Shown in pieces: positions 16,620 to 20,841 of a DNA stretch of 44,288 nt (positions within the stretch are counted from its first letter, which is position 1; each line of letters opens with the position of its first letter). Location of the stretch: the NCBI GenBank assembly GCA_018224385.1, contig JAGTVB010000008.1, positions 1 through 44,288 on the forward strand. Reading direction: 5' to 3'. The translations under genes were made by a program, and so were the position numbers. Below the pieces are notes generated by a model. The model saw only the letters and a list, made by a program, of their open reading frames with translations. It was not told where the DNA came from and made no database searches. Source of the stretch: Gammaproteobacteria bacterium. Lineage in GTDB: Bacteria; Pseudomonadota; Gammaproteobacteria; HK1.

Positions 16620-17318
16620 CTAGGTGCACTTGGAGTCTGCACAATTCAAGCACACCGTACAGCCATCCAGCTGTACCACTGCCTTGGTATGGCATTTCAG
16701 GCAAAGGCGCGCTTCCTTCGGAAAGCTTGTCTTTGGCTCTTGCGTGTTCTTAGGTGAACGGCCGGATCTTGCGTCGAAGGTAGCTCGCTTCTCGGCAATT
16801 AAATAGGCCTGACCCGGTTCAAGAGGGTCGTTCTTCAGCAGGCCAATCATGCGCATGTGGCGTTCGATGGCATCGCCGATTTCCGCCACCAGTGAGGGCA
16901 TATACTTGCCGCCGGGTTTGAAGTAGCCGCCCCTTGGATCAAACACGGAATGTAGCTCTTCCACGAGAAAGGTAATATCGCCTCCCTTTCGGAAAACTGC
17001 CGAGATAATACGCGTCAGCGCGACGATCCACTGGAAGTGCTCCATGTTCTTAGAATTAATAAAGATTTCGAAAGGGCGGCGCTGCTCGTGTTCCGTGTCG
17101 GCGTTGAGCACCACATCGTTGATAGTGACGTAGAGCGCATGTTCCGAGAGCGGCGTCTTAATTTTGTAGGTGGAGCCGAGCAAAACCTCCGGTCGCTCGA
17201 GCCTCTCGTGCATTTGGACGACGTTTGTCGTGGGTTTTGGCTCCGCATCCTTGGGTTTATCTGAGTCCATAACCTTGACCCGATAACCGACAATCTTCTG
17301 ATCGATTTTGATTGCCAT
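16620..17318 (-). CDS. nrdJb: Class II ribonucleotide reductase, C-terminal chain (TSCPD plus zinc ribbon)
   Basis: Second chain of a split adenosylcobalamin-dependent ribonucleotide reductase. In Pseudomonas the NrdJb chain is needed with NrdJa for activity. The TSCPD domain spans about residues 45-160 (RRPFEIFINSKNMEHFQWIV, GGYFKPGGKYMPSLVAEIGD). The C-terminus ends in a cysteine cluster, CLKCHTKAVVQLDGC then CLNCADSKC, which should bind zinc or deliver reducing equivalents to the active site. The track uses a GTG. The ATG one codon on has GGGGAG at 7 nt. It is the second gene of the nrdJa-nrdJb unit, but 188 bp and a repeat copy separate the two. A stand-alone paralogue of its TSCPD domain lies at 35.5 kb. 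Confidence 0.9.
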   Translation of the reverse strand: MAIKIDQKIVGYRVKVMDSDKPKDAEPKPTTNVVQMHERLERPEVLLGSTYKIKTPLSEHALYVTINDVVLNADTEHEQRRPFEIFINSKNMEHFQWIVALTRIISAVFRKGGDITFLVEELHSVFDPRGGYFKPGGKYMPSLVAEIGDAIERHMRMIGLLKNDPLEPGQAYLIAEKRATFDARSGRSPKNTQEPKTSFPKEARLCLKCHTKAVVQLDGCTVCLNCADSKCT

Positions 17319-17347
17319 CACTAGTCTCCCCTGGACTGTCCCCTAGC

Positions 17348-17506: not shown

Positions 17507-19669
17507 TCAAAAGCGCCCGTAATAACCTTCCTTGATCGCGTCATATAGGTTGGCGGCAGTATGCGTCTCCCCATCGTACTCTATCTCATCGTTTCCTTTG
17601 GCCTCGACCGCTGTCCCGTCTTCGAGGGTAAAGTGATAGGTGGTTTTCTCCAGATCCTTTTCCTTGACGAGAACGCCTTGAAAAGACTCGGGATTAAAGC
17701 GGAAGGTCGTACATCCCTTCAGCCCTTTCTGATAGGCATAAACGTAGATGTCCTTGAAGTCTTCATAGGGAAAGTCGGTGGGAACGTTAGCCGTCTTGGA
17801 AATAGACGAATCGATCCATCGCTGGGCGGCGGCCTGAACGTCGACGTGCTCACGGGGGGTGATGTCATCGGCGGTTACAAAGCACGCTGGCAAGGTTCCC
17901 CGGCTCTCGCCGTCCCCGGGCATGGCATCGGAATCGATGAGCTCCCGGAAGGCAAGCAGCTCGAAGGAGTAGACATCTATCTTTTCCTTTGTTTTGCGCC
18001 GCTCCCGGATAACATTACGCGAATAGTGATGTGCGAAGCTCGGCTCGATGCCATTGCTTGCATTGTTGGCCAAGGATAAGGCAATGGTGCCGGTCGGAGC
18101 GATAGAGCTATGGTGGGTAAAGCGAGCTCCGACGTCTGCGAGTTGGTCGATGAGATCAGAATCAATGGTCGCAAGCCGCTGCATGTAACGGCTGTAGCGG
18201 GCATGTAGGATTTTGCCGGGGACACGATCCCCGACCTGAAAGCCATCTTTTGCCATTTCCGGACGACGGCAAAGCATGTCGGTACTGACCGTAAATTCTT
18301 CCTCCATGAGTGGCGCTGGCCCCTTCTCCTTGGCAAGCTCGACCGCCATCTGCCAGCCCACATGAGCCAGCTCGCGGCTTACTCGTTCAGTGAACTGCAG
18401 CGATTCCGAAGAGCCATAGCGCATCCCGAGCATGGCTAATGTCGATCCCAGACCGAGAAAACCCATGCCGTGGCGTCGCTTACGAAAGATTTCGTCGCGC
18501 TGCGATTCGAGCGGCAGTCCGTTAAGCTCAACCACGTTATCCAGCATTCGAGTGAAAACAGCGACGGTGGCGCGATAGGTTTCCCAATCGAAGCGGACCT
18601 GTTCGGTAAACGGATCCAGCACAAACTTAGTGAGGTTTACCGAACCGAGCAAGCAGGAACCATAGGGCGGTAGCGGTTGTTCGCCGCAAGGATTGGTGGC
18701 ACGTATGTTCTCGCAGAACCAGTTATTGTTCATCTCATTTATCTCATCGATGAGGATGAACCCAGGTTCAGCAAAATCATAAGTGGAGGACATGATGAGG
18801 TCCCAGATGCGCCGTGCGCGCACGCTCTTGTAGACCGCGCAAGCGACCTCGCCGGCCTCATTGACAACATAACCGTCCTTGACGGGCCACTCCCGCCACA
18901 CAATCGAGTCCGTATCGTGGAGGTCAATGGCATCGCATTCCACCTCTTTAGCCGTGAGCGGGAACGCCAGCGGCCACTGCTCGTCTTGGCTGCCGGCTTG
19001 CATAAACGCACGACTCACCAGCAGGGAGAGGTTGAACTGCCGTAAGCGGCCGTTCTCGCGTTTGGAGCGAATGAAATCCAGCACGTCCGGATGACCGACA
19101 TCGAATGTCGCCATCTGCGCGCCACGCCGCCCTCCGGCAGAGGAGACGGTAAAACACATCTTGTCGTAGATATCCATAAACGAGAGCGGCCCTGAAGTGT
19201 AGGCGCCGGCCCCAGATACATAAGCGCCTTTCGGGCGCAAGGTGGAGAACTCATAGCCTATTCCGCATCCCGCCTTGAGGGTTAACCCGGCCTCATGGAC
19301 CTTTGCCAGGATGGCGTCCATTGAGTCTTTAACCGTTCCGGATACGGTGCAATTGATGGTCGAGGTGGCAGGCTTATGTTCCAAGGCCCCTGCATTAGAG
19401 ATGATGCGTCCACCTGGAATGGCGCCGGCCCGTAGTGCCCAGAGGAATTTTCCGTACCACTCATCCTGCTTCGCTGGGGTGGTTTCGACCTCAGCAAGCG
19501 CCCTTGCAACACGCTGATAGGTACCATCGATAGTTTGATCTAGAACGGTACCGTCCTTTTTCTTGAGCCGGTACTTGCGATCCCAAATATCCATCGATGC
19601 CGCTTGCAACGGGATCTCGGCAGGGCTGACGGTGTTGCTCAAGAGTGAGTGCTGGTGTGCAAATGTCAT
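17507..19669 (-). CDS. nrdJa: Class II (B12-dependent) ribonucleotide reductase, catalytic chain
   Basis: Reduces ribonucleotides to deoxyribonucleotides using adenosylcobalamin, so it works with or without oxygen. The 10-stranded barrel motifs are present: INCTVSGTVKDSMDAIL, LKAGCGIGYEFSTLRPKGA, SSAGGRRGAQMATFDVGHPD, ATNPCGEQPLPPYGSCLLGS and IAPTGTIALSLANNASNGIEP. The C-terminus ends after a short beta-rich tail without the TSCPD and zinc-ribbon part, which is supplied by nrdJb. The track begins at 19774. The ATG at 19669 has AGGGGA at 7 nt and gives 720 aa, and the extra 35 residues do not look like protein. Two NrdR boxes overlap its promoter. Dependence on cobalamin means the host makes or imports B12. 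Confidence 0.96.
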   Translation of the reverse strand: MTFAHQHSLLSNTVSPAEIPLQAASMDIWDRKYRLKKKDGTVLDQTIDGTYQRVARALAEVETTPAKQDEWYGKFLWALRAGAIPGGRIISNAGALEHKPATSTINCTVSGTVKDSMDAILAKVHEAGLTLKAGCGIGYEFSTLRPKGAYVSGAGAYTSGPLSFMDIYDKMCFTVSSAGGRRGAQMATFDVGHPDVLDFIRSKRENGRLRQFNLSLLVSRAFMQAGSQDEQWPLAFPLTAKEVECDAIDLHDTDSIVWREWPVKDGYVVNEAGEVACAVYKSVRARRIWDLIMSSTYDFAEPGFILIDEINEMNNNWFCENIRATNPCGEQPLPPYGSCLLGSVNLTKFVLDPFTEQVRFDWETYRATVAVFTRMLDNVVELNGLPLESQRDEIFRKRRHGMGFLGLGSTLAMLGMRYGSSESLQFTERVSRELAHVGWQMAVELAKEKGPAPLMEEEFTVSTDMLCRRPEMAKDGFQVGDRVPGKILHARYSRYMQRLATIDSDLIDQLADVGARFTHHSSIAPTGTIALSLANNASNGIEPSFAHHYSRNVIRERRKTKEKIDVYSFELLAFRELIDSDAMPGDGESRGTLPACFVTADDITPREHVDVQAAAQRWIDSSISKTANVPTDFPYEDFKDIYVYAYQKGLKGCTTFRFNPESFQGVLVKEKDLEKTTYHFTLEDGTAVEAKGNDEIEYDGETHTAANLYDAIKEGYYGRF

Positions 19670-19787
19670 GTGTTTCCCCTGAGAGCGGCAATAAAATTCA
19701 CCGCACGTTTCCGTTCGTGCTTTACCCTCTAACCAAAGATAGGTGCTGGAGGAGTTCCAAGCGAAGGCGATCAAAGCGCCTCTGCAT

Positions 19788-19815
19788 AGTGTAGAACACT
19801 ATGGGTTGTAGTCAA
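19788..19815 (-). promoter_or_regulatory. nrdJ sigma70 promoter
   Basis: On the minus strand, TTGACT (19815-19810), a 16-bp spacer, then TACACT (19793-19788). Transcription would begin near 19781, leaving a leader of roughly 110 nt before the nrdJa ATG. The leader contains a GCACG/CGTGC stem but no cobalamin-riboswitch core that I can see. The promoter spacer is covered by an NrdR box. Confidence 0.6.
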
Positions 19816-19842
19816 GCATAAAAAAATCACCATATATTGTGT
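19796..19842. promoter_or_regulatory. Tandem NrdR boxes controlling nrdJ
   Basis: Two 16-bp sites match the known NrdR consensus ACAcwATATATwGtgT. The distal site TCACCATATATTGTGT (19827-19842) agrees at 14 of 16 positions. The proximal site ACACTATGGGTTGTAG (19796-19811) agrees at about 11. They are 31 bp centre to centre (15 bp between), the helical phasing known for NrdR pairs. The proximal box lies in the promoter spacer and touches the -35, as expected for repression by the ATP/dATP-sensing regulator NrdR. The nrdR gene is not in the window. Confidence 0.75.
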
Positions 19843-20010: not shown

Positions 20011-20841
20011 ATGCTGACCACCAAAAGGTATGAGTACTTGCGTTTTGACAACATTCGGATACATCCTGACGTTTCCAACCACCGCCCATTGGATATCCGA
20101 AAGGTGGCCCACTACGAGGAGGACATCTACCGCAACGGCTTGCTTGAGCCGTTAGTGGTTTGGGAAAAAGGAAGCGGCGACTACTTCTTAGTGGGTGGTT
20201 TTCACCGCATGGCCGCCATCAATGCCATCCGGGCAAAACATCCCGGCTACTTCGATTCTGTCGATACCCGCGTGGTGGCGGGTAGCCTGGATGAGATCCG
20301 TGCGTTAAACCTCAAGCTTAACGCCGATCGCCTCGACACCAAGATCACCGACTACTTCGATACTGTTATCTACCTTAACAATGTGAATTGGCCGAAGGGG
20401 CGCATCGCGGAATTTCTGGACAAGAGCGTGCCCTGGATTGAGGAGATTCTGCGCTACGCGCCTACTATGGATCAACGGCTTCGGATACTTCTGGAAAATG
20501 GCCGAGTCTCCTGGAATCGGGCCAAACAGATTTGCCGACTGATTCAGGAGGCGCCCCCTGGTCGAGAACAAAAAGTCCTTGACAGAGAGCTCAAGGCATT
20601 GAGCCGGAACACTGTTGCGTCAAAGGCGCGCAAAAAACCGTTGACTTTTCGGATTGCAGAAAAGCGCTTACGTACCCGCTCGCGGAACCAGCCCGATAGC
20701 ACATTCACGGTCGGAGCCGAAGATCTCCTCTGTTTGCTTCTGGTACTGCAAGGAACGCGCTATGACGAGGAACATCTTCAACGGGTACGCAACACCTTCC
20801 CGGGGTTATTGGAAGAGCAAACACCTGACGACAATGGCTGA
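20011..20841 (+). CDS. Orphan ParB N-terminal-domain protein
   Basis: A 276-aa protein with a ParB/Sulfiredoxin-type domain at about residues 10-110. The nucleotide-binding motif appears as GGFHRMAAI in place of the classical GERRWRA box, with EEDIYRNGLLEPLVVW before it. A helix-turn-helix-like segment follows (around WPKGRIAEFLDKSVPWIEEI), then a basic linker and an acidic C-terminal helix. There is no parA gene or parS-like cluster beside it, so chromosome segregation is unlikely. Members of this superfamily also act as transcription regulators or CTP switches. It is divergent from nrdJ and shares a 340-bp control region. The start is an ATG after GAGGG. A TATAAG -10-like box lies about 95 bp upstream. 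Confidence 0.8.
   Translation: MLTTKRYEYLRFDNIRIHPDVSNHRPLDIRKVAHYEEDIYRNGLLEPLVVWEKGSGDYFLVGGFHRMAAINAIRAKHPGYFDSVDTRVVAGSLDEIRALNLKLNADRLDTKITDYFDTVIYLNNVNWPKGRIAEFLDKSVPWIEEILRYAPTMDQRLRILLENGRVSWNRAKQICRLIQEAPPGREQKVLDRELKALSRNTVASKARKKPLTFRIAEKRLRTRSRNQPDSTFTVGAEDLLCLLLVLQGTRYDEEHLQRVRNTFPGLLEEQTPDDNG

Follow-up and report, generated by a model that had tools for sequence, protein, structure and literature searches.

The contig described here raises the question of whether two box-like sequences upstream of a class II ribonucleotide reductase (RNR) gene act as an operator for the repressor NrdR. On the evidence assembled below, it is highly probable that the two 16-mers serve NrdR as an operator at the nrdJab promoter. 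This analysis establishes the sites and the distance between them, the presence of an nrdR gene and the conservation of the boxes together with the promoter; the predicted binding, nucleotide switching and repression in this host would follow by analogy with E. coli, Streptomyces and Pseudomonas aeruginosa.

The window, by which is meant the whole 44,288-nucleotide stretch that was analysed, is one entire contig (C8) of a 3.8 Mb assembly in 390 contigs that is 91% complete, and its closest named nrdJ relatives are gammaproteobacteria. The gene nrdJa (17507-19669, minus strand, with its ATG at 19669) encodes an adenosylcobalamin-dependent (class II) RNR of 720 aa, which matches PF02867 and the TIGR02504 equivalog (561.6 bits against a cut-off of 399.95). 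On its 3' side lies nrdJb (16620-17321, minus strand), a small second gene whose product carries a TSCPD domain (PF12637, 38.2 bits) and aligns with the C-terminal part of the PRK08665 class II RNR. By these domain matches, nrdJa and nrdJb together are a split class II reductase.

Both boxes are read on the minus strand, towards nrdJ. The distal and stronger box (ACACAATATATGGTGA, 19827-19842, predicted -61 to -46) agrees at 14 of 16 positions with ACACWATATATWGTGT, the consensus used for strict match counts, and the proximal, weaker box (CTACAACCCATAGTGT, 19796-19811, predicted -30 to -15) agrees at 11 of 16. Direct reading of the sequence confirms what the sequence-only reading had reported, namely two NrdR-box-like 16-mers, 31 bp apart from centre to centre, with 14 of 16 matches in the distal one; the distance is exactly 31 bp and leaves 15 bp between the boxes. 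The proximal box keeps C4 and G13, the conserved positions, and has the non-canonical centre CC where AT is canonical. A promoter-hexamer search placed a predicted -35 hexamer, TTGACT, at 19810-19815 and a predicted -10 hexamer, TACACT, at 19788-19793, both on the minus strand. This TTGACT-16-TACACT element (19815-19788) is one of two promoter-like matches in the region, against 0.4 expected from shuffles, and it should drive nrdJa-nrdJb. The earlier claim that the boxes overlap or abut this promoter holds: the proximal box fills the -35/-10 spacer, its first two bases being the end of the -35 and its last base falling two bases short of the -10. Transcription of nrdJ is expected to start near 19781, a prediction consistent with the conserved promoter, and the leader would then be about 112 nt long. 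Control by a cobalamin riboswitch was considered and dropped, as no Rfam family reached its gathering score in this leader or anywhere else in the window.

NrdR regulons have been catalogued for 186 proteobacterial genomes (PMC5343134), and box pairs are defined here as 16-bp palindromes near acaCwATATaTwGtgt that lie 15-16 bp apart (31-32 bp from centre to centre). The nrdJ promoter combines palindromic boxes at this spacing with an RNR operon as the target and an NrdR encoded in the same genome. Spacings of 15-17 bp between boxes have been found to give repression in vivo and those of 18-24 bp derepression (PMC12051234), and the suitability of the 31-bp step for NrdR repression, proposed at the outset, is thereby upheld. 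The absence of nrdR had been named beforehand as grounds for refutation, and a single nrdR gene was found, on contig C344 in the order glyA-nrdR-ribD. Its product exceeds the TIGR00244 cut-off of 124.65 with 209.7 bits, matches PF22811 and PF03477 above their cut-offs (Zn-ribbon plus ATP-cone) and aligns over its full length with solved NrdR structures (E 2.9e-59). It also retains D15, R17 and the RRRR motif, which were reported as contacting the box and important for DNA binding (PMC9110341).

Support for the boxes comes also from scans of the window and the genome. Only one site in the 44 kb window matches the consensus at 13 or more of 16 positions, and ten do so at 11 or more. Of 3000 dinucleotide shuffles of the intergenic region, 0.03% produced a single site of at least 14 matches; the largest tandem at 31/32 bp had 21, and none came to 25. 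A weight matrix was derived from 67 boxes lying 5' of nrdJ in relatives, with the window excluded. It gave the distal box the top score in the window (19.2 bits, with a runner-up of 11.5) and ranked the proximal box, at 4.8 bits, as the fourth highest position; among box pairs at spacings of 17-59 bp, the distal and proximal boxes at 31 bp scored best, with 24.0 bits. The genome-wide scans used patterns in place of the matrix. When up to 3 mismatches were allowed, the core of the tandem at 31 bp was matched at one place in the 3.8 Mb genome, the nrdJ promoter, and the reversed control was matched nowhere; the pattern had been loosened so that the nrdJ site would qualify, and the uniqueness of that site counts for more than the match itself. 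At 32 bp, the same genome-wide pattern scan returned 0 matches.

Among single boxes in the genome, the nrdJ distal box shares the best match, at 2 mismatches, with a site at C89:2293-2308 (L006 1501-1516). This lone NrdR-like box, ACACCACATATAGTGT, scores 20.4 bits, has no partner at 30-33 bp and lies 3' of a LysR-type gene and just 5' of a short reading frame, which we take to resemble the start of a transposase.

The arrangement recurs in relatives. Of the 80 upstream regions of named relatives' nrdJ genes, 75 contain a box scoring 12 bits or more, and second boxes (above 0 bits) peak on the side towards the gene, at +31 (19% of regions), +32 (13%) and +33 (4%), with about 1% or less elsewhere. 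Four family members (G005, G007, G012 and G015) carry a strong box followed by TTGACT, a 16-bp spacer that is itself box-like, and TAGACT or TACACT at the place equivalent to the -10. This unit of a strong box, a 31-33 bp step and TTGACT-16-TAGACT/TACACT recurs 5' of nrdJ in family members that belong to other genera. Better second boxes also occur, with 12-15 bits at 32 bp in genus g7 (G006, G010, G014) and 15.8 bits at 31 bp in G013. Co-occurrence of box and nrdR was assessed in the 25 genomes for which an upstream region was available. Among the 23 that have nrdR, the host being one of them, 22 show a box scoring 11-29 bits, whereas coding DNA of equal length yielded at most 2.7 bits. In G025 nrdR is present and no box was detected upstream of nrdJ; in G001, a family member whose assembly is 96% complete, neither nrdR nor a box upstream of nrdJ was detected; and in G049 a box is present and nrdR was not found in an assembly 86% complete, the nrdR-negative set being too small for a statistical claim.

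The NrdR reading is supported on several counts: the genome has an nrdR gene, the presumed target encodes a genuine class II reductase, the spacing is right, no second tandem of this kind was found in the genome, and relatives show the arrangement 5' of nrdJ as well. Its main uncertainty is the weakness of the proximal box, with 4.8 bits and a CC centre. One alternative builds on that weakness: the distal box alone would be a genuine site, the proximal 16-mer would be promoter sequence with an accidental likeness to a box, and NrdR would bind weakly or use one box plus a non-specific contact. This is unlikely, albeit the most serious of the competing explanations. The low score and the CC in place of AT speak for it, as does the finding that many relatives have one strong box with a poor partner, and P. 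aeruginosa topA was reported with a single box (PMC4409342). Against it, positions matching at 11 of 16 number only 10 in 44 kb, so that one lying exactly 31 bp away is improbable; moreover, the proximal position retains C4 and G13 and is box-like in relatives, at up to 15.8 bits. The promoter of E. coli nrdAB offers lessons in both directions. One sequence there that was once called a box bound poorly, and a box-like look is therefore no proof (PMC12176259). Yet a box whose centre is non-canonical proved functional at the same promoter, which provides a precedent for the host proximal box (PMC12176259). As in the host, box 1 and box 2 of nrdAB pair a good box with one of non-canonical centre, 15 bp apart and at the promoter, although nrdAB is a class I RNR with the box centre AG and the host operon is class II with CC (PMC12176259).

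It is extremely improbable that both boxes resemble NrdR sites by chance, in the AT-rich DNA of a promoter. Single sites with up to 3 mismatches are indeed little more frequent genome-wide than in the control (11 against 7), but the shuffles, the genome-wide tandem search and the conservation across genera all disfavour chance. It is almost as doubtful that the region serves some other regulator through a perfect inverted repeat, CATAGTGT-AGA-ACACTATG, which lies at 19785-19803 over the predicted -10. No mismatch separates its arms, and at a tolerance of up to 3 mismatches the window should contain just 0.11 such matches. However, the repeat combines TAGTGT, a half of the proximal box, with the -10 hexamer TACACT, both of which are otherwise explained, and it is absent from family members that keep the boxes and the promoter; because it is not conserved, it was set aside as a separate operator.

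Characterized systems suggest how an NrdR operator would work at this promoter. A tetramer of NrdR carrying ATP plus dATP binds a pair of boxes (PMC9110341), and in the host it would do so when dATP is plentiful. With the boxes three helical turns apart on one face of the DNA, bound NrdR would cover the -35/-10 region and block RNA polymerase, and less class II RNR would be made. As dATP drops, NrdR would pass into its ATP form and leave the DNA, and nrdJab would be expressed. In the NrdR structure, the conserved GC pairs that the repressor contacts occupy positions 9/18 in one box and 40/49 in the other, 31 bases further on (PMC9110341), and both host boxes keep the equivalent C4 and G13 at that same step. 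The Streptomyces coelicolor nrdRJ promoter resembles the host promoter in this 31-base step between the GC pairs of its boxes and in serving a class II RNR (PMC9110341). In Streptomyces nrdR lies within the operon (PMC9110341), whereas the host gene lies elsewhere, in its glyA-nrdR-ribD setting, and self-control of nrdR was set aside, no box above 2.5 bits being seen in its fetched 3.3 kb locus. In P. aeruginosa, nrdJ is an established NrdR target whose expression goes up when nrdR is mutated, and mutating box 2 of the RNR promoters supported the conclusion that the boxes work and that control is direct (PMC4409342). The P. aeruginosa nrdJab operator was shown with a mutant and a reporter (PMC4409342), whereas the host operator is predicted from sequence. 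P. aeruginosa also has all three RNR classes (PMC4409342), in contrast to the host genome, in which neither the class I small subunit (PF00268) nor NRDD (PF13597) was found and no class III RNR was detected.

The divergent gene on the other side of the boxes (20011-20841, plus strand) lies outside the conserved unit. It shares the intergenic region with nrdJ, sits between nrdJ and an mreB-like gene, and resembles ParB by a match to phrog_1033 (5.5e-10), the Pfam ParB_N match reaching only E 0.12. The sequence-only reading had suggested that this gene might respond to NrdR too. Such a response is a guess, and is unsupported because none of the 109 other nrdJ loci fetched has a relative of the gene next to nrdJ, although most of them keep the boxes; NrdR control shared with this gene was set aside, but a weak plus-strand promoter-like match that overlaps the boxes makes some response conceivable. 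One marginal match (25% identity, E 8e-4) turned up in 54 related genomes and none in the plasmids or viral contigs searched, and the gene is an apparent orphan.

The nrdJ operator would add one more well-supported example, from an uncultured lineage, of a regulon known across most bacteria, a case of ordinary and well-understood gene control. The practical value lies mainly in the nrdJ loci assembled here, a collection of class II RNR promoters with a recurring design in which a weaker box within the -35/-10 spacer accompanies a strong distal one. The genome carries a second class II reductase gene, at C159:12775-14565 (L003 1405-3270), which encodes a protein of 621 aa that scores 573 bits against TIGR02504 and shares about 46% identity with nrdJa, and no NrdR box was found within its 4.5 kb locus. 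Tentatively, NrdR may control nrdJab but not this paralogue, and its genome-wide role could be confined to one operon. Finally, in five relatives (G009, G013, G021, G024 and G052) the nrdJa matches fall in two or three pieces within open frames of 1068-1828 aa and are interrupted around query residues 306-329 (in G052 also around 130), a pattern that suggests inteins in these class II RNR genes.
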